Source: a bacterium (GTDB lineage Bacteria; JAJVIF01; JAGGVT01). Taken from it: DNA of 17,564 nucleotides. Under the pieces are notes generated by a model. It ran no database searches. It worked only from the letters and a program-made list of their open reading frames with translations, and had not been told where the DNA came from. Where the stretch lies: NCBI GenBank assembly GCA_021157815.1, contig JAGGVT010000077.1, forward strand, positions 1-17,564, in the 5' to 3' direction. The position numbers were made by a program, and so were the translations under genes. Of the stretch, positions 133 through 17,564 are shown piece after piece. Each line of letters starts with the position of its first letter. Within the stretch, counting starts at the first letter, position 1.

Positions 133-150
133 CCCCCCGCTCGCGGGGGG
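133..150. repeat. G/C-rich hairpin and G tract next to the 31-bp array
   Basis: CCCCCCG (133-139) and CGGGGGG (144-150) form a 7-bp stem with a CTCG loop. A near-unbroken G run follows at about 156-165. It looks like an intergenic palindromic repeat. No T tract follows, so it is not a typical plus-strand terminator. It lies about 90 bases upstream of mnmE. Confidence 0.6.
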
Positions 151-237
151 ATTAAGGGGGGGGGGAGAAGACGCAATCCTGAATCAGAATAAAATATCTT
201 TTTTTCACAACGGAATGAAAAATAAATGCTTCCTGAC

Positions 238-1605
238 ATGTCAGATACAATCGTCGCGCTAGCTACACCATCCGGTGAGGGTGGCATTGCTGTAATTCGC
301 CTGAGCGGAGCGGATTCAACCTCAATTGCCTCAAATGTTATTGAAAACGGAGTAGGGGAAACCATTGAAAATCCGCGGATGATGATTCTTAAAAACCTGC
401 TGGACAAAAACGGAGGCATTATTGACAACGCGCTTGTTGTTTATTTCAAAACGCCGACTACATACACCGGCGAGGATGTCATCGAATTCCACTGCCACGG
501 CGGCGATTTTGTCTCGCATAAACTGATCGAGACACTTGTATCGCATGGTGCAAGGCGTGCTGAAGCAGGTGAGTTCACAATGCGCGCTTTTCTCAACGGC
601 AGGATTGACCTGACTCAGGCGGAGGGTATTCTCGCTCTGATAACAACCGGAGCTTCGCCATCGCACTCAAGAGCTGTCAGTTTGCTTCGCGGAGGCTTGA
701 AAGAGAAAATCAACAGTATTCGCGACAAACTTCTCGACATCATCGCGCCTTTCGAGGCAATAATCGACCATCCCGAGGATGACATGGATGATGAGCAATC
801 GACTGTCAATCCTGATATTCTCGCATTAATAAAAAAGGAAATAGATGATCTTGCCGCGGGATTTGTGGAAACATCAAAACTCGAAACAGGCATGAAAATA
901 GCAATCGTCGGACGGCCAAACGTGGGTAAATCCTCGCTGATGAACTGTCTTCTGATGAAACGCCGTGTGCTTGTTCATGACACTCCCGGCACAACCCGTG
1001 ATGTTATCACGGAGGAATTAATGCTGGGAGAGGGGAGATTCCGCATTTATGACACGGCTGGATTACGGGATGATGCCGCTGATATCGAGCGTGAGGGAAT
1101 CGAACTTACAAAAGAGGCAATAGATGAAGCGAATGCTGTTATCGTTGTTCTGGATTCATCCGAACCATTATCGAAAGAAGATGCTGAAATCCTGCGGAAT
1201 GTCTCGCATAAACCGCTTGTCATCTGCTTGAACAAGAGCGACAAGAAATCCAAATTATCAGTCGATGAACAACCGGAGTTATTCAAATCAAAATCGATTA
1301 TTCGCGTTTCCGCGCTTAAAGGCGATGGCGTTGACAATCTTATAGATGAATTGAAAAAACTCTATTCTGAGAATGTCGGAGAGGTTGAATCCGCAATTCC
1401 GCTGTTAAAGCGTCATCACGGACATCTTCTGAAAGCGTCCGACGCGCTCGAGGATGCGATTGAGGCGATTGAAATCCTGCTTGCACCGGATGCTATCGCG
1501 CTTGACTTGCGAATAGCGCTTGAGGAAATGCTCTTTATTACCGGTGAAAGCTTCGATGACATTCTTTTGAATGAAATATTCTCCAACTTTTGCGTTGGGA
1601 AGTAG
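238..1605 (+). CDS. mnmE: tRNA modification GTPase MnmE (TrmE)
   Basis: With MnmG, this GTPase installs the (carboxymethyl)aminomethyl group on wobble uridine 34 of certain tRNAs in the cytoplasm. The N-terminal tetrahydrofolate-binding domain opens with the family pattern DTIVALATPSGEGG. An inserted G domain follows, with the P-loop GRPNVGKSS, the switch region PGTTRD, DTAGLRD and the NKSD specificity motif. The protein ends in CVGK, matching the family's C-terminal CxGK. Length (455 aa from this start) is typical. I chose the ATG at 238 (MSDTIVA) because family members begin this way. An in-frame ATG at 226 would add four residues, and neither start has a good Shine-Dalgarno site. A methyltransferase gene follows after 18 bases. 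Identification is very secure; only the start is uncertain. Confidence 0.96.
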   Translation: MSDTIVALATPSGEGGIAVIRLSGADSTSIASNVIENGVGETIENPRMMILKNLLDKNGGIIDNALVVYFKTPTTYTGEDVIEFHCHGGDFVSHKLIETLVSHGARRAEAGEFTMRAFLNGRIDLTQAEGILALITTGASPSHSRAVSLLRGGLKEKINSIRDKLLDIIAPFEAIIDHPEDDMDDEQSTVNPDILALIKKEIDDLAAGFVETSKLETGMKIAIVGRPNVGKSSLMNCLLMKRRVLVHDTPGTTRDVITEELMLGEGRFRIYDTAGLRDDAADIEREGIELTKEAIDEANAVIVVLDSSEPLSKEDAEILRNVSHKPLVICLNKSDKKSKLSVDEQPELFKSKSIIRVSALKGDGVDNLIDELKKLYSENVGEVESAIPLLKRHHGHLLKASDALEDAIEAIEILLAPDAIALDLRIALEEMLFITGESFDDILLNEIFSNFCVGK

Positions 1606-1623
1606 TCAGGAATAAAAAACAGT

Positions 1624-2391
1624 ATGCCTGAATCCAAACATATCTACGATAAGCATTATCAGGGCGATTACAGGGAATACCTGACAGGTTTCGAGATAGC
1701 GCGATGGGATGCGCTTGCTCATTTCATTCCGGTTGTGCTTGGGAAAACGGATGTCGGTAAAGTGCTCGATTACGGCGCTGGTAGCGGTTTGTACGTTCCA
1801 CTGTGGCTGAAACTCTTTAAAAATGCTGAATTGCACTGCTGCGATATAAGTGTCGTAGCTCTTGATAAACTAAAATCGAAATTCCCGCAACTTGAAAACA
1901 ACTGCAACATCGTGAATGAGCATCAGGCTCAAATCGACGGCAACCTGTTTGATGTGATTGTCAGCGTCGAGGTTATGGAGCATGTCGAGAATCTTCAATC
2001 CTACATTGCGGATATTCATCGACTACTCAAACCGGGAGGGCATTTCATCTGGACAACCCCATGCGCTAATATCCTGTCAATAGAACACATCATTTACTCG
2101 ATTACCGGACAGATTGAATCCACCGATGAGGGCTACCGGCGGTGGAAATCAGAAGCGCCGATTCATGTCCGACGTTTGAAAAGCGAAGAAGCGAAGCAAT
2201 TGCTCTTGGAGAGCGGATTTGAGAACGTGCGTTTTCGATTCAGGTCGCATTTTTTCTCGTATGTTTGCACAAGATTCCCCAGACGCTTCAGCAATCTGGC
2301 TGACAAATTAATGAAGCTTGATTACAAGCTGTTTCGCAAAATGCCCAACGGCGCATCAATGCTGGGTTGTGCAAGGAAGATATCTACCTGA
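1624..2391 (+). CDS. class I SAM-dependent methyltransferase
   Basis: A 255-aa Rossmann-fold methyltransferase of the UbiG/Methyltransf_11 type. Motif I is VLDYGAGSG (residues 47-55). The acidic end of strand 2 is at CDIS, then FDVIVSVEVMEHVEN, and the post-motif stretch HRLLKPGGHFIWTTPC is highly characteristic. The C-terminal third is basic and aromatic (FRFRSHFFSYVCTRFPRRF) and may contact a membrane or an acidic substrate. A Shine-Dalgarno-like CAGGAA lies about 10 bases before the ATG, and the gene starts 18 bases after mnmE, so co-transcription is likely. The substrate cannot be read from the sequence; quinone, lipid or glycan methylation are all possible. It is not RsmG, which in other bacteria tends to sit with mnmG. 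Confidence 0.88.
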   Translation: MPESKHIYDKHYQGDYREYLTGFEIARWDALAHFIPVVLGKTDVGKVLDYGAGSGLYVPLWLKLFKNAELHCCDISVVALDKLKSKFPQLENNCNIVNEHQAQIDGNLFDVIVSVEVMEHVENLQSYIADIHRLLKPGGHFIWTTPCANILSIEHIIYSITGQIESTDEGYRRWKSEAPIHVRRLKSEEAKQLLLESGFENVRFRFRSHFFSYVCTRFPRRFSNLADKLMKLDYKLFRKMPNGASMLGCARKIST

Positions 2392-2428
2392 TATGGTATG
2401 ATAAAAATAGCATAGAATGAAAGTAGTT

Positions 2429-2532
2429 CGGGTGCCGCCCATACAGCCGTCTTGGTTTTATGGGTGGAATAGCATGACTTCGCAGTGATCACCCACAAAT
2501 CACAAAAAGACGTGATGTGTGGGCGGCACCCG
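2429..2532 (+). repeat. 104-bp palindromic element, copy 1 (MITE-like)
   Basis: The element begins CGGGTGCCGCCCATACA and ends TGTGTGGGCGGCACCCG, terminal inverted repeats of 17 bp with one mismatch. Inside are two back-to-back hairpins: CCCATA/TATGGG (2438-2464) and CCCACA/TGTGGG (about 2494-2525). Each has an inner 5-bp stem, and they are separated by a core of about 23 bp between TGGGTG and CACCCA. A second copy of exactly the same length lies in inverted orientation at 14941-15044. It has no coding capacity, so it would be a non-autonomous mobile or structured-RNA repeat. No obvious target-site duplication is visible. Confidence 0.85.
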
Positions 2533-2581
2533 GATTTTTTCAAGAGATACGCTCTTACCAACGGGGTGCTGATGCACTCGG

Positions 2582-2671
2582 CTTTCCGGCAAGGATGCCG
2601 AAGCTCCCAGCCTTTCCGGCAAGGGTGCCGAATCTCCCAGCCTTTCCGGCAAGGGTGCCGAATCTCCCAGC
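2582..2671. repeat. 30-bp tandem repeat, three copies, each with a small hairpin
   Basis: Units at 2582, 2612 and 2642 share CTTTCCGGCAAGGGTGCCGA followed by ATCTCCCAGC; the first differs at two positions. Each unit contains CGGCA-AGGG-TGCCG, a 5-bp stem with a 4-base loop. The length is a multiple of three, so one plus-strand frame stays open across it, but that frame is repeat-derived and I do not call a gene. Confidence 0.9.
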
Positions 2672-2681
2672 CAAAATGTAA

Positions 2682-2706
2682 CCCGGCATCCCTTTGCCGG
2701 GGTTTT
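2682..2706 (+). terminator. terminator-like hairpin with T run
   Basis: CCCGGCA (2682-2688) pairs with TGCCGGG (2695-2701) and is followed by GTTTT. It has the shape of a weak Rho-independent terminator for the mnmE-methyltransferase unit. It is almost 300 bases past the methyltransferase stop, and its stem resembles the reverse complement of the hairpin in the 30-bp units. It could therefore be just another copy of that repeat. Confidence 0.45.
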
Positions 2707-2914
2707 ACTAACCTACTAACCTACTAACCTACTAACCTACTAACCTGCTAACTTACTAACCTACTAACCTACTAACCTGCTAACCTACTAACCTACTAAC
2801 CTACTAACCTACTAACCTGCTAACCTACTAACCTACTAACCTACTAACCTACTAACCTGCTAACCTACTAACCTACTAACCTGCTAACCTGCTAACTTAC
2901 TAACCTGCTAATCC
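2707..2914. repeat. 8-bp minisatellite, 26 units (ACTAACCT / GCTAACCT)
   Basis: Twenty-six units run in perfect phase from 2707. Most are ACTAACCT. Units 6, 10, 15, 20, 23, 24 and 26 start with G, and two of these read GCTAACTT. Units 11-15 and 16-20 are identical four-A-plus-one-G blocks, so a 40-bp higher-order period is visible. The last unit (2907-2914, GCTAATCC) contains the stop codon of the minus-strand lipoprotein gene. Every unit carries TAA on the plus strand and TAG on the minus strand, apart from small changes in the last unit. Because the unit is 8 bases, stops fall in all frames. Confidence 0.95.
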
Positions 2915-4062
2915 ACCCAGTCGCAAATAAAGATATTCATGTCGTGACGGCTTTTACCGTTTCGGCTTGATGTGAAAGTGAGTTTAGAACCATCACGGCT
3001 GAACATCGGGAAAGCATCGAAACCCTCATAAAAAGTAACCTGCTCAGGATTGGAACCGTCGATGTCAACAATCCAAAGGTTGAATCCCATCGGCGATTTG
3101 CTTCCGAGATTAGAGACGTAAATAATCTTCTTATCGCCGGGCATGAAGAACGGGCAGAAATTAACCGCGCCGTTATCTGTAATCTGCACTTTGTTTGAGC
3201 CGTCTGAATCCATTACCCAAAGTTGCAAAGGCATTGGTTTAATCCCAAATTGTTTTTTCAGTGTTGTTTGGAAATCAGCCATTTCTTTATCAGTTTCAGG
3301 ATAATACGCTCTGTAACATATCTTCGTGCCATCCCAGCTGAAGAACGGGCCGCCGTCATAACCGGGACTGTGAGTCAGTTGCTTTTTGTTGGAACCGTCA
3401 ATGTCCATTGTCCAGATTTCCGGATCTCCGGTTGACAGGGATGTAAACACAATGCTGCTGCCATCGAACGCAAATGATGATTCAGCATCGTATCCCCATG
3501 CGTCCGTAATCTGTTTGAGGTTGCTGCCGTCCGGATTAGCGGTGAAAATGTCCATCTCAGGATGGAATTTCCAGTGGATTAATCCTTTTCCCATTTCAAT
3601 CATTTCAGGACATTCCTTTTTATTATGGTGCGTTGAACAGTAAAGTATCATGTCATCGCTGGGATGCCTAAAGAAACTGCTGGCGCATACGCCATCGCCG
3701 GTTGAGACCATTTTCTCTTCGCCGGTTTCAATATCTATCATGAAAATCTGGTCACATTCACCTTTTTCCATATGCGCTTGCATGATTAGCTTTGTGCCGT
3801 CCGTATTGAAATACGCTTCCGCGTTTTGACCTTTATTTGTTATCTGACGCATGTTCGCAAGACGTTTCTCCCCCGGATAGGCTAGAGGATTATCAGATGC
3901 GTCACTAGGTTTTAAGGTATCAGTATCTGTTGATGATTCGGGAACCTCTTTTTGATCTTCGGGTTGCTCGGATGTTTTGCTGTTTGTATCAGAGCAAGCC
4001 AGTGAGATAAAAAGGAGTAATGTGAAAATAGTTACTAAAATCAATGATGAAAAACGTATCAT
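2908..4062 (-). CDS. predicted lipoprotein with TolB-like (PD40) beta-propeller repeats
   Basis: The start is ATG 4062 (MIRFSSLILV), preceded by a strong AAGGAAGG about 8 bases upstream. A longer frame to 4128 has no such support. Residues 2-22 form a hydrophobic signal peptide ending LFISLAC, with C23 as the likely lipidated cysteine. The -3 residue is Ser, so the lipobox is not ideal. An S/T/E/D/P-rich linker of about 40 residues follows. The rest is a series of WD40-like PD40 repeats of the form F-x-x-DGSxIxFTS (for example SFAFDGSSIVFTS and MFSRDGSKLTFTS), spaced with IDGSN. About five or six blades are visible, as in TolB. The protein would sit in the envelope and bind partners or ligands. 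It is not TolB itself, since no Tol-Pal genes are nearby. The stop codon lies inside the 8-bp array. Confidence 0.85.
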   Translation of the reverse strand: MIRFSSLILVTIFTLLLFISLACSDTNSKTSEQPEDQKEVPESSTDTDTLKPSDASDNPLAYPGEKRLANMRQITNKGQNAEAYFNTDGTKLIMQAHMEKGECDQIFMIDIETGEEKMVSTGDGVCASSFFRHPSDDMILYCSTHHNKKECPEMIEMGKGLIHWKFHPEMDIFTANPDGSNLKQITDAWGYDAESSFAFDGSSIVFTSLSTGDPEIWTMDIDGSNKKQLTHSPGYDGGPFFSWDGTKICYRAYYPETDKEMADFQTTLKKQFGIKPMPLQLWVMDSDGSNKVQITDNGAVNFCPFFMPGDKKIIYVSNLGSKSPMGFNLWIVDIDGSNPEQVTFYEGFDAFPMFSRDGSKLTFTSSRNGKSRHDMNIFICDWVD

Positions 4063-4095
4063 GTATATATACCTTCCTTGTAAAATAATTGATGC

Positions 4096-4123
4096 ATTAT
4101 AGCATTGGTAATAATTTTGTAAA
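4096..4123 (-). promoter_or_regulatory. sigma70-type promoter for the PD40 lipoprotein
   Basis: On the minus strand, TTTACA (4118-4123) and a perfect TATAAT (4096-4101) are separated by 16 bases. The predicted start of transcription is about 30 bases upstream of the ATG at 4062. A plus-strand promoter lies just beyond it, so the two genes are divergently transcribed. Confidence 0.65.
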
Positions 4124-4149
4124 TTCAATCATGCATAAATCAGTTAACC

Positions 4150-4158
4150 TGTTATAAT
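4150..4158 (+). promoter_or_regulatory. extended -10 promoter for the NUDIX/RelA-fusion genes
   Basis: TG-T-TATAAT at 4150-4158 is a perfect extended -10. No good -35 is visible at the expected place, which is tolerated for extended -10 promoters. It precedes the NUDIX start (4214) by about 55 bases and could drive NUDIX plus the downstream fusion gene. Confidence 0.5.
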
Positions 4159-4213
4159 GTTTCAATCATTTCTGTGAATTGATTAAGGTGTCTTTGCATT
4201 GTACGGAGGGTAT

Positions 4214-4612
4214 ATGTCAGACAAACCATTTTCACTCTCAGCCAAAATACTCGTTTGCGACAGCGAAAGTCGATGGCTTTTTATAAAACGTTCGGATACC
4301 AGCAAGTGGAATCCCGGAAAGTGGGACCTGCCTGGAGGCAAACTCGATCCCGGAGAGAATTACATGGTTGGATTGCTCAGGGAAGTATCAGAGGAAACAG
4401 GTCTGAATGTTATAATTAGTTCCCTGTATGGCGCGATTGAGGATGAAACGGATGATTTCAGAATTGCCCATCTTGTCATGGCTGGGGATTATGTGTCAGG
4501 TGAAGTGAAATTGAGCCGGGAACATATGGATTATAAATGGGTCAGGCAGGAAAATGCGCTTGATCTGGATTTGTGCGATTTTCTAAGGAATCTTATCGAG
4601 ATGAGGATGTAA
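4214..4612 (+). CDS. NUDIX hydrolase (MutT-like)
   Basis: This 132-aa single-domain NUDIX protein would cleave nucleoside diphosphates linked to another moiety. The Nudix box GX5EX7REUXEEXGU is complete: G42, E48, then R56-E57-V-S-E60-E61-T-G63-L. Just before it is KWNPGKWDLPGG, typical of MutT/8-oxo-dGTP or ADP-sugar types. I use ATG 4214 because GGAGGG (4205-4210) sits right before it; an in-frame ATG at 4199 has no such site. Only 8 bases separate its stop from the RelA-SLOG-RyR gene, so the two are almost surely co-transcribed. By context it might hydrolyse an alarmone or an ADP-ribose-like signal handled by that protein. The family is certain, the substrate unknown. Confidence 0.93.
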   Translation: MSDKPFSLSAKILVCDSESRWLFIKRSDTSKWNPGKWDLPGGKLDPGENYMVGLLREVSEETGLNVIISSLYGAIEDETDDFRIAHLVMAGDYVSGEVKLSREHMDYKWVRQENALDLDLCDFLRNLIEMRM

Positions 4613-4620
4613 TTAAAAAA

Positions 4621-7110
4621 ATGACACCAGGAAAAATTGATAAAAACTGGGTAGCGGAACAGGTGAAGGAATACACAGATGTACTTCCCCGCTATGACGA
4701 ATATTCAAAGGTTCTATATACAATTCTCAAGTCGGTAATGAAAAAGACAGCTCCGATGTCAATTATCCAGACGAGAGTGAAGTCGATTCCCAGTTTCACG
4801 AAAAAGGCGATTAAGAAAGCTGAGACACGGAAATATCCTGTTGAGGAATTTACCGATTTGTGCGGTGCGCGCGTCATTGTCCAAACGCGTGACTACATCG
4901 AACCTGCCTGCGATTTCATCAAGGAGTTTTTTGAAATAGACTGGAAAAACAGTCTTGATGTCAGTGAACGTCTCAAGGTTAATGAATTCGGTTATCGTTC
5001 GATTCATTATATCGTCGAACTCAAACCTGGAGTAACATCCTATAAAAATTCAATATTTGATATCCCCCAAAGCATATTTCCGGATGATGAAACACCGATG
5101 AAGGCGGAGATTCAGATAAAGACACTGCTGGAACATGGGTGGGCTGAGTATTCGCATGACCTTGCATACAAAGGCTCATTCAAACTGCCGAAAATTATTA
5201 ACCGTGAACTCGCGGTTGTATCCGCGCTGCTTGAAAGCGTTGACTCATCGTTGTCAAGAATCAACGACAGGATTCGAAAATACACCGCAAGCTATGATTC
5301 ATACATGACAGTTGACCAGATAAAATCTGAAATTGATACACATGAGTTAATTCTCGAATACTCACCGGAAGAATTCATGATTGCCAGCAAGATAGGAAAA
5401 CTGGCGATTTCAATTGGCGAATGGCAGAAAGCGATTGATGTGCTTGAAAAGTACGTTGACACTTCTTATCAGCCAATCCTGAGAGATCTTGGAATAGCTG
5501 TTTGCAAACTCAACAAGGGAAATACTGAATCATCTGAATATCAAAAAGGCCAGGAGTATCTCGAACGCGCGATTGAACTTGACGAAACCGACGTTGATGC
5601 CATATCTTCGCTCGCGGGAACATGGAAGGGGATCGATGAGGATAAAACGCTTCTGCTCTACAAGAAAGCTCTTGAGATAGATCCGGGAGATCCCTATGTT
5701 CTCGGCAACTGCCTTGAGTACGAAATCCAATCGAGGAACGATGCGACTGTTGTTTCTCTGATGTCGATGCCGATTAATGCCGCAATTAATCGCTGCTGGG
5801 AACAGGCTGAGGTCGGTTCGAATTATCCGTGGGCTTTTTATGACCTTGGCAAATTATATCTTCTTGTCGGACAACCATACCTGAGCATGATGGCTTACCT
5901 AAAAGCGATAGAAATTTCAACCGCTTTGTTTATGGTTGAAACATCCATGAAGTCGCTTGAACATATCAAACTGGCAATAGGTTCATTGTATGATTGGGCT
6001 GACTATCTGTTTAAAATCGGGATGTTTCTTAAGAGTGGAACTGACAAGGCAATAGATGAAATCAAGCAATCAGCGTCAAAAGGAAAAGATATAATCAAAG
6101 GTGATGTAACAATCGTTGTTGGCTCGTGCAATTCGATGAAAGATGATGAGCGCGCGAAATACAGCGGTCTTCTCATTGACGCGTTCAAGGATTATCACGG
6201 AACAATTATTTCCGGTGGAACCAAACAAGGTATCAGTGGAATTGTCGGTGATTTGCAGAAAGCCTGGCCAAAAGCAATAAACACAATTGGATATGTTCCA
6301 ACTGAACCTCAATGGGGTATTGAAATAGATGACAGGTACTCGGAGATAATCACAACCCAAACATCCGAATTCAATCCGTTACAATCTTTGCAATACTGGA
6401 TTGACATTATCGCGGCAGGAATTGACCCTAAGACCGTAAAATTGGTTGGCGTCGGCGGCAATTCACTCTCATCATTCGAGATAGCGATGGCGATTGTAGT
6501 TGGAGCAAAAGTAGTCATTCTGGAAAGGCCAAAGGTACCGTCAGAATTGCAGGATGATGAAATCCTCCTTTCTGATTTAAACAACCTTGAAATATTCCCC
6601 ACTCACAGGTACATGCTGCCGGCGTTTATCGGAACAGGTACAATGAAACTGCCTGAAGAGATTCGTGAAAAACTGGCAAAATACGTACACAGCAGATACA
6701 GGGCGATTTACCCGCCCCAGCTTATCCTGACTCCTGAATCGATGGTCGATTGGGATGATCTTTCGGACGAACTAAAGGAATCAAACAGGCTGAATGTTGA
6801 CAATATAGTGCAGAAACTCAACGAGATTGGCTTTGTGATTGAAGAAGTGGATACAGAAACAAAAACATTGAAACCATTTACTGATGAACAGATTGAAATA
6901 ATGGCTGAGATGGAACACGCCCGTTGGATGGCAGAGAAAATGGTAGCCGGATGGAAATATGGCAAACATAAAGACATTGGTAAAAAAGAACACCCTTCGA
7001 TTGTCTCATGGCGTGAGCTCAGTGATGCCATGAAGGATATCGACAGGAACCTTATCAAAAACATGCCCTGGTTCCCGGCTGAACTGAAACTTCGCGTTAA
7101 GCCAAAATAG
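4621..7110 (+). CDS. RelA/SpoT-type nucleotide synthetase fused to TPR, SLOG and RyR domains
   Basis: An 829-aa multidomain protein, probably cytosolic with no signal or TM segment. About residues 20-200 form a RelA/SpoT synthetase domain: R52-V-K54 then SIPSFTKKAIKK, D79-L-C-G-A-R84, Y125-R-S127-I-H129, and E163-I-Q165-I-K-T followed by W174. These match the ATP/GTP-binding and Mg-binding positions (Asp, Glu) of ppGpp synthetases. No HD hydrolase domain is present. About 250-460 is TPR-like (YLERAIELDETDVDAISSLA; YKKALEIDPGDPYVLGNCLE). About 493-640 is a SLOG Rossmann domain (VTIVVGSCNS, ISGGTKQGISGIVGDL, LVGVGGNSLSSFEIAMAIVV) like the LOG/DprA/TRPM group. About 754-829 is a RyR domain (MEHARWMAEKMVAGWKYG, HPSIVSWREL, DR). 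I chose ATG 4621; GTG 4573 would overlap the NUDIX gene by 40 bases. Neither start has a strong ribosome site. SLOG and RyR domains are known in nucleotide-signalling conflict systems; the actual product and role here are unknown. Confidence 0.88.
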   Translation: MTPGKIDKNWVAEQVKEYTDVLPRYDEYSKVLYTILKSVMKKTAPMSIIQTRVKSIPSFTKKAIKKAETRKYPVEEFTDLCGARVIVQTRDYIEPACDFIKEFFEIDWKNSLDVSERLKVNEFGYRSIHYIVELKPGVTSYKNSIFDIPQSIFPDDETPMKAEIQIKTLLEHGWAEYSHDLAYKGSFKLPKIINRELAVVSALLESVDSSLSRINDRIRKYTASYDSYMTVDQIKSEIDTHELILEYSPEEFMIASKIGKLAISIGEWQKAIDVLEKYVDTSYQPILRDLGIAVCKLNKGNTESSEYQKGQEYLERAIELDETDVDAISSLAGTWKGIDEDKTLLLYKKALEIDPGDPYVLGNCLEYEIQSRNDATVVSLMSMPINAAINRCWEQAEVGSNYPWAFYDLGKLYLLVGQPYLSMMAYLKAIEISTALFMVETSMKSLEHIKLAIGSLYDWADYLFKIGMFLKSGTDKAIDEIKQSASKGKDIIKGDVTIVVGSCNSMKDDERAKYSGLLIDAFKDYHGTIISGGTKQGISGIVGDLQKAWPKAINTIGYVPTEPQWGIEIDDRYSEIITTQTSEFNPLQSLQYWIDIIAAGIDPKTVKLVGVGGNSLSSFEIAMAIVVGAKVVILERPKVPSELQDDEILLSDLNNLEIFPTHRYMLPAFIGTGTMKLPEEIREKLAKYVHSRYRAIYPPQLILTPESMVDWDDLSDELKESNRLNVDNIVQKLNEIGFVIEEVDTETKTLKPFTDEQIEIMAEMEHARWMAEKMVAGWKYGKHKDIGKKEHPSIVSWRELSDAMKDIDRNLIKNMPWFPAELKLRVKPK

Positions 7111-7140
7111 CTAAAACCGGATTATGATGTTGACTGCATC

Positions 7141-7191
7141 ACAGAAGAATATACATTTAGTCGATAATGACTATGTAAGAATTTCTTCTGT
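7141..7191 (+). promoter_or_regulatory. two-tier hairpin between the RelA fusion and the transporter
   Basis: ACAGAAGAA (7141-7149) pairs perfectly with TTCTTCTGT (7183-7191). Inside, TAGTC (7158-7162) pairs with GACTA (7169-7173), partly extended by ACA/TGT. No T run follows, so it is not a classical terminator. It ends 11 bases before the transporter ATG (7203) and could affect mRNA stability or ribosome access, or serve as a protein-binding site. The visible ribosome site (about 7194-7202) is poor. Confidence 0.5.
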
Positions 7192-7202
7192 CAGATAGAG
7201 CG

Positions 7203-9398
7203 ATGAAAGACGACAGCAACAGAAGACTCGGCACATTTCTCGGAGTTTATACACCGACAGTGCTGACCATTCTTGGCGCGATTATGTACCTCAGGTCGGG
7301 ATGGCTTGTCGGACATCTGGGAATCAGCCATGCCCTGGTTATTGTTGTGATAGCGAACGCAATCACACTTATCACAACGCTGTCATTTTCATCAGTTGCG
7401 ACTAACATTCGAGTCGGAGTGGGGGGAGCGTACTATATAATCTCGCGCAGCCTTGGAATTGAAATAGGCGGCGCGATTGGCTTTCCGCTTTTTCTCTCAC
7501 AGGCATTTTCAGTAACACTGTACGCTTTTGGACTCGCTGAATCGTTGCGGCTTGTAATGCCTGATGTTCCGGTGCAAACCGCCGCGTTTTTAATAATTCT
7601 TGTTGTCGCCGTTCTCTCTTTTATTGGCGCGAGTTATGCATTGAAAGCGCAGATGCCCGTTATGGTTTTCATTGGCGTATCGATTATCGCTCTTGTCGTC
7701 GGAGCGATAATGAAATCATCCGCCACTCAACTGCCGGTTTTTCAACCATCCGGTGAAATAACGTTCTGGTATGGATTCGCGGTTTTCTTCCCGGCGGTTA
7801 CCGGCGTTATGGCTGGATTGGGTTTGTCCGGCGATCTTAAAAATCCGGGACGGTCAATTCCTCTGGGATCGCTTCTTGCCGTAATGACGGGTTTTGTAAT
7901 CTATATGTTTCTTCCTGTTTTTCTTGCTATGGGAGCTAGCCCGGAGGAACTTAGAACCAATCCGATGATATGGGCAAAGATTGCGCCTTTGGGAGTATGG
8001 CTGATACTGCCGGGTTTGTGGGGAGCGATTTTCTCATCCGCAGTAGGTTCCATGCTTGGCGCACCGAGAACTCTTCAGGCTCTTTCCAGGGATGGCCTGT
8101 TGCCGGGATTCCTTCGCGGGAAAAAAGGTGGCATATATGGACTCGCTCCAGGATTTATAATCAGTATTGCGATTGCACTTGCTGCGGTCTTGCTTGGAAA
8201 TCTAAACGCTGTCGCTCCTGTCGCGACAATGTTCTTTCTCACAATATACGGCACATTGAACATAGTCTCCGCGATTGAGACTATAAGCGGAGACACATCA
8301 TGGCGGCCCAAACTCAGAGTGCCGTGGATTATCAGCATGGTTGGCGGTATTGGATGTTTTGTCGCGATGTTCCTTATAAATCCTCTTGTTGGATTAATCG
8401 CAATTCTGGCGGAAATTCTTCTATGGTCATTCTTCTCACGAAGGGAGCGAACAAGGCGATGGGGGGACGCGCGTCGCGGTGTCTTTGAGAGTTTGATAAG
8501 ATGGGCGCTGCTTCGATTGAAAAGCCATCCCATGAGCGCCAGAAACTGGCGGCCGCATGTCCTCGTTTTTGTGTCTGACCCAATAAAACAGATTGACCTT
8601 ATTCGATTTGGCGACTGGTTCAGCCACGGTAGGGGAGTTGTTACGGTATGTGAACTTATTGTCGCTGACCTTCTGAGTGATAATCTTGACCTTATCAACA
8701 AGAGAACTCAAATCCAGAATATAATGGACAAGGAGCATCTTGTTGTATTTGCCGAGGTAAATGTTGTACATGATATTGTCGAGGGAATTACAAATGTCTC
8801 GCAGGCAAACGGAATGGCAGGGTTGCAGAGCAATACCGTAATGCTCGGGTTGCCTAAAAACAGGGAACTTAACGTTGAGTTTCTGCGTGTCATGCGTCGA
8901 TTGGAGCATCTCAAAAAATCATTAATAATCGGGCGAGCGCAATCCGGACATTATTCATCGAAGGATAGTTCGCGTCAAAAGATACTTGTCTGGTGGCGAG
9001 GCATGCAGTATAACGGTGATTTAATGCTGCTTCTTGCATACCTCCTGAAAAAGAATCCTGAATGGCACGGCGCGCGAGTTCAGGTAATGAGCATTGCCCC
9101 CGACCATGTCATGAAAGACAGCATTGAAAGAAATCTTAAAAAAATCATCAGCGAAATTCGAATCGATGCTGAACCGCATGTAATTATCAAGCCGGAGGGG
9201 CAAAGAGTGACTGATTTTATCCATCAGGAAAGCTTGAACGCCGATGCTGTTTTCTTCGGGCTAGCCACTCCTAAAAAGGGTGAGGAGATGGAATACTCAA
9301 AACGGATGGAGGAACTCGCTCGTGAGCTGCCAACTGTCTTTTTTGTGAAAAATTCCAGCATGTTCATTGGTGAACTTCTCAAAAGTGACGAGGAATAG
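7203..9398 (+). CDS. SLC12-type cation-chloride cotransporter (APC superfamily)
   Basis: A 731-aa membrane protein. The N-terminal half (about 1-415) has roughly 12 hydrophobic segments with the CCC/APC hallmarks: PTVLTILGAIMYLRSGWLVG, VGVGGAYYIISRSLG, and FFPAVTGVMAGLGLSGDLKN. The last corresponds to the FFPaaTGimAGaNxSGDL block of NKCC/KCC proteins. The cytosolic C-terminal half resembles the SLC12 regulatory domain (NWRPHVLVFVSDP; later ADAVFFGLATPKKGEE). It would move chloride with K+ and/or Na+; substrate choice cannot be read with confidence. The start MKDDSNRRLGTFLGVYTPTV fits the family. It follows the RelA-SLOG-RyR gene by 92 bases containing a hairpin and no convincing promoter, so read-through from the NUDIX promoter is plausible. 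Confidence 0.88.
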   Translation: MKDDSNRRLGTFLGVYTPTVLTILGAIMYLRSGWLVGHLGISHALVIVVIANAITLITTLSFSSVATNIRVGVGGAYYIISRSLGIEIGGAIGFPLFLSQAFSVTLYAFGLAESLRLVMPDVPVQTAAFLIILVVAVLSFIGASYALKAQMPVMVFIGVSIIALVVGAIMKSSATQLPVFQPSGEITFWYGFAVFFPAVTGVMAGLGLSGDLKNPGRSIPLGSLLAVMTGFVIYMFLPVFLAMGASPEELRTNPMIWAKIAPLGVWLILPGLWGAIFSSAVGSMLGAPRTLQALSRDGLLPGFLRGKKGGIYGLAPGFIISIAIALAAVLLGNLNAVAPVATMFFLTIYGTLNIVSAIETISGDTSWRPKLRVPWIISMVGGIGCFVAMFLINPLVGLIAILAEILLWSFFSRRERTRRWGDARRGVFESLIRWALLRLKSHPMSARNWRPHVLVFVSDPIKQIDLIRFGDWFSHGRGVVTVCELIVADLLSDNLDLINKRTQIQNIMDKEHLVVFAEVNVVHDIVEGITNVSQANGMAGLQSNTVMLGLPKNRELNVEFLRVMRRLEHLKKSLIIGRAQSGHYSSKDSSRQKILVWWRGMQYNGDLMLLLAYLLKKNPEWHGARVQVMSIAPDHVMKDSIERNLKKIISEIRIDAEPHVIIKPEGQRVTDFIHQESLNADAVFFGLATPKKGEEMEYSKRMEELARELPTVFFVKNSSMFIGELLKSDEE

Positions 9399-12550: not shown

Positions 12551-12613
12551 TTTGTTTATTAAAATATTGTGAGACCTCTGAAGAGGGAAGAAATGTGTTA
12601 TCTTTTATTCGCG

Positions 12614-12650
12614 AAAAGAATGGATTCCGGGTCAAGCCCGGAATGACAAT
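12614..12650 (+). repeat. 37-bp palindromic repeat, left arm
   Basis: This contains ATTCCGGG-TCAAG-CCCGGAAT, an 8-bp stem with a 5-base loop. The 37 bases are a perfect reverse complement of 12978-13014. Related copies lie at 17421-17454 and, diverged, at 17464-17564. Similar intergenic palindromes are common in many bacteria. Confidence 0.92.
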
Positions 12651-12657
12651 AGCTCTC

Positions 12658-12963
12658 GTAGTAACAATGACTCAGTAGTGATGATGACTCAGTAGTAACA
12701 ATGACTCAGTAGTAACAATGACTCAGTAGTGATGATGACTCAGTAGTGACAATGACTTAGTAGTGACGATGACTCAGTAGTGATGATGACTCAGTAGTGA
12801 TGATGACTCAGTAGTGATGATGACTCAGTAGTAACAATGACTCAGTAGTGACAATGACTTAGTAGTGACGATGACTCAGTAGTGACAATGACTCAGTAGT
12901 GACAATGACTCAGTAGTGACAATGACTTAGTAGTGACAATGACTTAGTAGTGACGATGACTCC
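12658..12963. repeat. 17-bp tandem array, 18 units
   Basis: Eighteen units run in perfect phase with consensus GTAGTRAYRATGACTYA. Variation is limited to a few positions: inner AACAA, GATGA, GACAA or GACGA, and the end CTCA or CTTA, with CTCC in the last unit. Units 6-7 and 12-13 repeat the same variant pair, so local block duplication has occurred. There are no unique spacers, so it is not CRISPR. Each unit holds TAG/TGA or TAA stops, and none of it is likely coding. Confidence 0.95.
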
Positions 12964-12977
12964 CAGAATGGCACAAG

Positions 12978-13014
12978 ATTGTCATTCCGGGCTTGACCCG
13001 GAATCCATTCTTTT
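12978..13014 (-). repeat. 37-bp palindromic repeat, right arm
   Basis: This is a perfect reverse complement of 12614-12650 and contains the same 8-bp-stem hairpin. Together the arms bracket the 17-bp array as a 327-base loop. It ends 67 bases before the antiporter start, and no convincing promoter is visible in between. Confidence 0.92.
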
Positions 13015-13081
13015 CTAGAGGTTTTAAGATCAAGATATTAGTTGTTTTTAGCGTTTTAGATTTGATACAAGGCAATCAAAA

Positions 13082-14901: not shown

Positions 14902-15120
14902 CCGGCGCACAAAGGCGTTCCCCCTTTTATGAATACACGTCGGGTGCCGCCCACACATCACGTCTTTTTGTGATTTGTGGGTGAAATGCGTAACTTCGCA
15001 ACATGTCACCCATAAAGCCGGGACGGCTGTATGGGCGGCACCCGGTTTAATAGTATTTAGGCAGCCTGAAATGTTGAAAGTCGATATCAAGCCGGCGTAC
15101 AAAGGAGTCCCGCCTTTTTA
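14902..15120. repeat. imperfect 29-bp direct repeats flanking the second 104-bp element
   Basis: 14902-14930 and 15092-15120 share CCGGCGyACAAAGG, then GTyCC and CCTTTT, with about six differences. Each can form a small AAAGG/CCTTT stem. They bracket element copy 2 at 14941-15044. No equivalent flank is obvious around copy 1. The rest of the 393-base gap holds the pabA promoter and leader. Confidence 0.55.
14941..15044 (-). repeat. 104-bp palindromic element, copy 2 (inverted)
   Basis: Reverse-complemented, this matches copy 1 (2429-2532) along both arms apart from three C/T changes in one hairpin. The central 23 bases differ and instead resemble the copy 1 core in the opposite sense (both plus strands carry ACTTCGCA). 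The termini are CGGGTGCCGCCCACACA and TGTATGGGCGGCACCCG. Two internal hairpins are present; the one at about 15009-15035 is stronger here (AGCCG-GGA-CGGCT). Confidence 0.87.
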
Positions 15121-15867: not shown

Positions 15868-17280
15868 ATGAACAATCCGTTTGAAAGTGAAAAGCAAATT
15901 AGCCTTGTCGAGGACAGGTTAATCGTGCATGGCATGGATGATTCTGAATTCCTGGTTGAAGCGCGGAATATCGTTTCAAACCCTTTATCTATACTGCTTC
16001 TTAGCGGTGGATGCTCCGACACAAACCGCTATTCAATAATCGGATACCATCCTTTTCTGAATATCATTTCCAAAGATTCCTCTGTTTACATACAGACTCC
16101 CGGTAGCACAACCATTTTGAAAGAAAATCCACTTGATGTAATCGACAAGGTATTTGACAGCCTTAAGCCTGGCTATCCGCTTGAACGCCTGCCATTTCAA
16201 GGCGGCGCAATGGGCTATCTCGCGTATGAATTGAAAAATCAAATTGAGAAACTTCCTCAAACAGCTGAGGATAATCTCGAATTGCCTGATGTTTTTCTTA
16301 TGTTTCCCTCTCAAATTCTGATTCACGACAGGAAGCAAAAGAGCCTGCGATTATGCAAGCTCTCCGTGGATGGCATCGATGCTTATATCAGGTATCCCGC
16401 ATCCAAACCGGCAAATGAAAATCAGCAGTCATCGATGATTGGTGAAATCACCAGCAACACCACTTACGAGCAATACATCGACTCTGTGCGCCAAATCAAG
16501 GAGTACATACTAAGCGGTGATATCTATCAGGTAAATCTGTCACAGCGATTTTCAGTCCCCTTCAATAATGACCCATTCTCTCTTTTTACTTGCTTGTATG
16601 ATCAAAACCCCGCGCCGTTTTATTCATTCATCAACGCTAATGACCATTATGTAATCTCAACATCCATGGAGCGATTCCTGTATCAAAAGGATTCCTATAT
16701 CGAAACCCGTCCCATAAAAGGCACAAGGAAGCGTGGTGAAACTGATATCGAGGATAAAGCGCTTCGAGAAGAGCTGGAATCAAGCGCCAAGGAAGATGCT
16801 GAACTGTCGATGATAGTTGACCTTCTGAGAAACGACCTTGGCAAAGTTTGCAAACCATCAAGTGTTGAGATTATCAGGCACAGGGAAATAGAGGAATACC
16901 AGAATGTGTTTCATACTGTTTCGACAGTCACCGGTGAACTTATTAAAAGTACCAGTTACGGTGATTTGCTCAGGGCGACATTTCCCGGCGGTTCCATTAC
17001 AGGATGCCCTAAAATCCGCGCCATGGAAATAATCGATGAGCTTGAATCGGATGTTCGCCACGTTTACACCGGATCAATCGGATATTTTGGCTTTCACGGG
17101 AATCTTGATTTGAATATCGCCATTCGAACCGCGGTTATCGCGGATGGCACTTGCAATTTAGGCGTAGGCGGCGGTATTGTTCATGATTCAATCGAGGAGG
17201 ATGAATATCAGGAAACTCTTCAAAAGGGAAAGACGTTTTTTGATGTAATTAGAGAGATGAGTGAAGAGTCCAATCCGTGA
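15868..17280 (+). CDS. pabB: aminodeoxychorismate synthase component I
   Basis: A 470-aa chorismate-utilising enzyme that, with PabA, turns chorismate into 4-amino-4-deoxychorismate for folate. The N-terminal half has NRYSIIGYHP. The catalytic half has GDIYQVNLSQRF, RPIKGTRKRG (K284), MIVDLLRNDLG, VFHTVSTVTGEL, FPGGSITGCPK and GVGGGIVHDS. The lysine in PIKGT is the covalent-catalysis residue typical of PabB; anthranilate synthase TrpE has PIAGT, so PabB is favoured. Only a weak ribosome site precedes the ATG, suggesting translational coupling to pabA. The last codons and the TGA stop are the degenerate first unit of a 26-bp array. No pabC lyase is seen inside the window. Confidence 0.92.
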   Translation: MNNPFESEKQISLVEDRLIVHGMDDSEFLVEARNIVSNPLSILLLSGGCSDTNRYSIIGYHPFLNIISKDSSVYIQTPGSTTILKENPLDVIDKVFDSLKPGYPLERLPFQGGAMGYLAYELKNQIEKLPQTAEDNLELPDVFLMFPSQILIHDRKQKSLRLCKLSVDGIDAYIRYPASKPANENQQSSMIGEITSNTTYEQYIDSVRQIKEYILSGDIYQVNLSQRFSVPFNNDPFSLFTCLYDQNPAPFYSFINANDHYVISTSMERFLYQKDSYIETRPIKGTRKRGETDIEDKALREELESSAKEDAELSMIVDLLRNDLGKVCKPSSVEIIRHREIEEYQNVFHTVSTVTGELIKSTSYGDLLRATFPGGSITGCPKIRAMEIIDELESDVRHVYTGSIGYFGFHGNLDLNIAIRTAVIADGTCNLGVGGGIVHDSIEEDEYQETLQKGKTFFDVIREMSEESNP

Positions 17281-17420
17281 TAGGATTTAAAGAGGCCAAT
17301 CCATGATAGGATTTGAAGAGGCCAATTCATGATAGGATTTGAAGAGGCCAATTCATGATAGGATTTGAAGAGGCCAATTCATGATAGGATTTGAAGAGGC
17401 CAATTCATGATAGGATTTGA
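17278..17420. repeat. 26-bp tandem array starting at the pabB stop codon
   Basis: Units start at 17278, 17304, 17330, 17356 and 17382, with a 13-base partial at 17408. The core is TGATAGGATTTGAAGAGGCC. The last 16 coding bases of pabB (17262-17277) match the unit's second part at about 14 positions, so the array looks derived from the gene's 3' end. Unit 1 still carries some of the gene-like variants (CCAATCCA). Confidence 0.93.
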
Positions 17421-17564
17421 TGTCATTCCGGGCTTGACCCGGAATCCATTCTATAACCGAAAAAAGATGGATTCTGAATCAAGTTCAGAATGACAGTAAG
17501 ATGGATTCTGAATCAAGTTCAGAATGACAGTAAGATGGATTCTGAATCAAGTTCAGAATGACAG
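17421..17564. repeat. palindromic repeat copy followed by three diverged 34-bp copies
   Basis: 17421-17454 is the same palindromic repeat as 12978-13014 (ATTCCGGG-CTTGA-CCCGGAAT). Then 34-bp units at 17464, 17498 and 17532 carry the reverse orientation with ATTCTGAA-TCAAG-TTCAGAAT. The last is one base short at the window edge, and the array may continue. Confidence 0.9.

Follow-up and report, generated by a model that had tools for sequence, protein, structure and literature searches.

A conserved pairing of a NUDIX hydrolase with a synthetase-TPR-SLOG-RyR fusion protein, a candidate nucleotide-signalling module of bacteria

A NUDIX hydrolase gene and the gene of a large fusion protein, in which a RelA/SpoT-type synthetase domain is joined to a TPR array, a SLOG domain and a RyR domain, make up what, judged from sequence comparison, is a conserved yet rare two-gene signalling module. 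We put at about even the chance that this pair is a nucleotide-signalling hub, which the NUDIX enzyme would reset, with an interchangeable output and with the SLC12-like transporter gene beside it being incidental. The window, i.e., the whole stretch of DNA analysed (17,564 bases), is one entire contig (C170) of a 3.2-Mb genome assembly, and its features are collected in Table 1. The first-pass annotation had placed three plus-strand genes together here, namely a NUDIX hydrolase with a complete box, a fusion of synthetase, SLOG and RyR domains and an SLC12-like transporter; the gene layout and the domains named were confirmed, whereas the TPR array of the fusion had been missed. An alignment with the relative from locus L017 supported the ATG at 4621, located 8 bases past the NUDIX stop, as the start of the fusion over the GTG at 4573.

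Table 1. Features of the NUDIX-fusion locus, in window coordinates.
Feature	Coordinates	Strand	Basis
NUDIX hydrolase gene, complete box GKLDPGENYMVGLLREVSEETG	4214..4612	+	PF00293 E 3.3e-16; strict box
Fusion gene, 829 aa, synthetase-TPR-SLOG-RyR	4621..7110	+	ORF; 20 full-length relatives compared
RelA_SpoT synthetase core	4771..5175	+	PF04607 E 3e-17
TPR array, limits approximate	5338..5970	+	PF00515 E 1.4e-7, weaker TPR models
SLOG domain, LSDAT (TRPM) type	6085..6627	+	LSDAT_prok, fold match to TRPM2 and LOG
RyR (R12-type) domain	6847..7062	+	PF02026 E 1e-15; fold match to 6uhi and RyR3 R12
SLC12/cation-chloride-cotransporter-like gene; probably outside module	7203..9398	+	PF03522, TIGR00930

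The 17.5-kb contig also carries six minisatellite arrays, at 1-132 (period of 31 bases), 2582-2672 (30), 2706-2911 (8), 12658-12962 (17), 17262-17420 (26) and 17464-17564 (34), in which, for instance, TACTAACC is repeated 26 times and a 17-mer 18 times. Two perfect inverted repeats were seen in addition, one of 44 bases (2489-2532 vs 14941-14984) and one of 38 bases (12613-12650 vs 12978-13015), the latter enclosing the 17-base array.

Relatives of the fusion were compared at 20 distinct loci (the window, L010-L018, L028-L035, L066 and L067; L036 and L013 are one locus), which were gathered by homology and do not form an unbiased sample. The synthetase residues R52, K54, K62, D79, G82, R84, Y125, H129, E163, Q165 and H179 are invariant in all 20 full-length proteins, the domain aligns with solved small alarmone synthetases of the YjbM/YwaC type, and no Pfam or NCBIfam model of an HD hydrolase domain matched the fusion. 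With its active-site residues intact and the HD domain absent, this part of the protein appears to be a small alarmone synthetase domain. It has these traits in common with synthetases of the YjbM/SasB, YwaC/SasA and RelQ type, but unlike them it is fused to TPR, SLOG and RyR parts and paired with a NUDIX gene. The TPR array, positioned between the synthetase and SLOG, matches solved TPR proteins.

The SLOG domain of the window gave a weak Pfam match (LSDAT_prok, PF18171, E 0.06) that is under the cut-off when taken alone, and the same model, described as "SLOG in TRPM, prokaryote", matched all ten of the relatives scanned, with a best E of 1.6e-10. Residues G501, G532, G533, G537, G613 and E620 are invariant in the 20 full-length relatives. 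When an AlphaFold model of fusion residues 481-829 (mean pLDDT 82.5) was searched with Foldseek, the TRPM2 chanzyme came out on top (E 3.5e-8), closely followed by RyR R12 structures, while in a second look with VIA LOG-family proteins and TRPM2 were tied (Z about 15-16). Because a sequence-only search of the SLOG profile against the PDB returned chance-level matches only, the assignment rests on the Pfam LSDAT matches and the fold matches, which together point to a Rossmann-like SLOG domain, as read at first pass. Since E620 is invariant, this domain could be catalytic instead of a sensor.

The RyR domain is clear from profile and predicted fold alike. Its residues H766, W769, H791 and D808 are spaced identically to H75, W78, H100 and D117 of RyDEP, as matched by spacing and motif without superposition, so that the window copy appears to have all four ligand residues of that protein. 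RyDEP is a phage enzyme that cleaves 2' and 3' cyclic ADP-ribose, which it binds through these four residues, and the R12 family of RyR domains has ADPR and adenine compounds among its ligands (PMC13232231). While the spacing of ligand residues is common to RyDEP, the R12 domains (PF02026) and the window, RyDEP is a counter-defence glycosidase of a phage and the window RyR belongs to a large fusion protein of a bacterium. Among the 20 relatives, H766 is kept in all, W769 in 19 and D808 in 19 (with one gap); H791 is kept in only six, which counts against the hub reading. In the genome of the window RyR was found in the fusion only. Swapping of RyR domains within loci as homotypic adaptors was rejected, as the RyR tree, in which many forks are weak, mostly sorts by protein type (fusion, RCK, AAA) and not by locus. 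A tandem RyR-domain protein (L020, 8749-9852) was also seen in a genome of the window's class, G002, where the fusion is absent.

That the NUDIX hydrolase is a true partner of the fusion was borne out by its position next to it in 18 of the 20 loci, upstream in ten and downstream in eight, with gaps of about 0.9-1.4 kb in L014 and L018; near the fusions of L010 and L034 no NUDIX gene was found. Chance adjacency would be ~1% by our rough estimate, which assumes 10-20 NUDIX genes per genome. The window protein has the strict box GX5EX7REUXEEXG, the NUDIX proteins of the loci fall into two divergent groups, and the strict box is kept only by the window-type group and L066, the remaining proteins varying within the box. 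Since the NUDIX gene lies on either side and comes from divergent lineages, the pairing is not explained by mere descent of one fixed gene order.

Full-length fusions occur in Chloroflexota, Nitrospirota, Acidobacteriota, Pseudomonadota and further lineages. They were detected in at least 9 of the 82 genomes searched from the phylum of G048, at least 2 of 297 (phylum of G063), at least 2 of 295 (G065) and at least 1 of 400 (G059), counts that are lower bounds because just 2-11 candidates were scored per genome. In the phage, plasmid and viral-contig collections no full-length fusion was found but only synthetase-domain matches, which argues against carriage by mobile elements. The module is patchy in distribution and apparently chromosomal. 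Its conservation across diverse bacteria, together with the retention of catalytic and predicted ligand-binding residues, is consistent with a nucleotide-signalling hub. As to anti-phage defence, PADLOC matched fusion and NUDIX to the candidate families PDC-S33 and PDC-S07.

The loci differ in the genes found around this pair. TrkA_N/RCK proteins of a GsuK-like 2TM-RCK kind are encoded near the fusion in eight of the 20 loci (L010, L011, L016, L028, L029, L031, L032 and L066) and SLATT proteins in four (L012, L016, L035 and L067); channel-like or SLATT membrane genes are close to it in 11 of the 20. The RCK proteins of L011, L016, L031 and L066 bear a RyR domain, and the L010 copy, broken by a run of unknown bases, retains only the stretch before RyR. 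For the L016 protein a TM helix, a pore helix, a second TM helix, two RCK domains and RyR were predicted (pLDDT 78, lower in the membrane part), with GsuK as the best fold match (E 6.3e-11). GsuK is a nucleotide-binding RCK potassium channel; unlike GsuK, the RCK-RyR partner carries an added RyR domain, and in the L016 protein the TxGYG filter motif is missing in the form searched. The window has no such gene. A 2TM-RCK gene on contig C111 of the window's genome was rejected as a dedicated RCK-RyR channel, being without a RyR match. The nucleotide-controlled ion flux proposed at first pass is therefore plausible as an output for the family, given these RCK and SLATT neighbours, but not with SLC12 as the carrier.

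TIR proteins are encoded in eight of the 20 loci (L010, L014, L016, L029, L030, L034, L066 and L067). In the window neither a TIR nor a channel partner of the fusion was detected, a point against the hub reading. With no TIR gene beside the fusion the locus does not show the Thoeris arrangement of a TIR signal producer next to its effector.

Several further proteins were observed in these neighbourhoods. A TIR-phosphofructokinase domain fusion lies near the module in two distant lineages (L014, 9954-12095, minus strand; L029, 9230-11443, plus strand), and proteins of 860-930 aa with a C-terminal RyR domain are encoded in L011 (2041-4671), L018 (3897-6503), L030 (3042-5627) and L035 (3978-6767), three of them with an AAA-type ATPase match and all resembling a PfkB-type kinase at the N-terminus by eye. 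L068 encodes a protein (144-3203, minus strand) in which a sigma54-activator AAA domain is joined to RelA_SpoT, TPR and SLOG-like regions, and stand-alone sigma54 activators are found close to the fusion in L013 and L032. Directly upstream of the NUDIX gene in L012, the product of 3712-5457 combines a SLATT-type C-terminal half with a long N-terminal region without a Pfam match.

Which ligand and product the module has, which way control runs and whether immunity is involved are inferred. In the proposed hub, RyR and SLOG would bind ADP-ribose-type or other adenine nucleotides, which could be made by the products of the nearby TIR genes that are frequent in relatives, while the TPR array would take a protein input. 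Ligand binding by RyR/SLOG and the TPR input would release or shape the activity of the synthetase, which would then move pyrophosphate from ATP onto a nucleotide or possibly tRNA, and the NUDIX hydrolase would cleave the diphosphate-containing product or ligand and thereby reset the system. The output past the synthetase would vary, with a GsuK-like RCK channel or SLATT as candidates in many relatives and none found in the window. The opposite direction, in which the synthetase controls RyR/SLOG, is possible.

The pair may instead be a toxin with its antidote, the synthetase stopping growth through alarmone production or tRNA pyrophosphorylation under the gate of TPR, SLOG and RyR and the NUDIX enzyme relieving it, an explanation we hold to be unlikely. 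It would fit the intact active site without an HD domain, the tight linkage of NUDIX in both orders and the occurrence of stand-alone relatives of the synthetase domain in phages and viral contigs. On the other hand, NUDIX is missing at two loci, and the fusion is large and multi-sensor, whereas toxSAS proteins are compact.

Further down in probability, and in our view improbable, is a regulator of metabolism, not of immunity, in which SLOG is a PpnN-like nucleosidase under the alarmone of the fused synthetase, tuning nucleotide pools in stress while RyR senses adenine nucleotides. PpnN is among the VIA fold matches, its alarmone-bound forms included (Z about 14.5), and the invariant G613 and E620 resemble the LOG motif PGGxGTxxE. 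The neighbouring genes of the window, and likewise those of L017, look like housekeeping genes, in keeping with such a regulator; those of the window do not resemble a defence island, which counts against the hub. The best Foldseek matches are TRPM2 and not LOG, however, and the TIR, SLATT and AAA-RyR neighbours suggest conflict systems.

The gene downstream of the fusion is a cation-chloride-cotransporter homologue, matching TIGR00930 (E 7e-114, yet under the curated cut-off) and PF03522 (2.5e-11). The first-pass annotation had cast it as the output of a circuit in which the synthetase makes a signal, SLOG or RyR binds it and NUDIX erases it, and had named a transporter gene not conserved next to the fusion in relatives as an outcome that would refute the idea; this is the outcome obtained. 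SLC12 adjoins the fusion in the window and in none of the 19 other loci. It was not found in G001, the source of the closest fusion relative, or in G002, and in 15 other fusion genomes it was on a different contig in six and without a match in nine, the absences resting on draft assemblies; in G003 a partial SLC12 is present and the fusion was not found. On these neighbourhoods SLC12 was rejected as a conserved output, and the gene in the window is probably a bystander. Thus the circuit with SLC12 as output is very improbable, despite the shared strand, the 92-base gap (7111-7202) in which no terminator was detected and the membrane genes near other fusions. A promoter-like site in the gap (7130-7157), at chance level, also speaks against it.

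A likeness to TRPM2 and ryanodine receptors, noted at first pass, was upheld by the LSDAT_prok and fold matches. With TRPM2 (SLOG/MHR, channel and NUDT9-H) the window pair has in common an LSDAT-kind SLOG and a NUDIX enzyme, but here NUDIX is a separate MutT-like protein, a synthetase and RyR are added, and the fusion contains neither a channel nor a NUDIX domain, whereas TRPM2 holds a TRP channel and NUDT9-H in one chain; RCK channel-like genes are present only in some relatives. It is conceivable, though we doubt it, that bacteria have in this family an equivalent of TRPM2 and the ryanodine receptor spread over several proteins, in which an ADP-ribose-type signal acts through RyR/SLOG to gate the synthetase and often a GsuK-like RyR channel, with NUDIX as the eraser. 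Burroughs et al. 2015 reportedly defined the SLOG/LSDAT systems and described nucleotide-centric conflict systems, which have SLOG, SLATT and TIR parts in common with this family. Every single domain of the fusion is already known, and in our literature search no paper named the fusion or the RCK-RyR partner, although Burroughs et al. 2015 may list both.

Work on alarmones and work on ADP-ribose signalling usually run separately, and with the fusion and its NUDIX partner a connection between the two can be tested directly. The RCK-RyR proteins are small bacterial systems for asking which ligands RyR domains bind and whether they gate channels, the same question that animal ryanodine receptors pose. 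If the family does correspond to TRPM2 and ryanodine receptors in this way, TIR/NAD signalling would be tied to the stringent response and to membrane potential.
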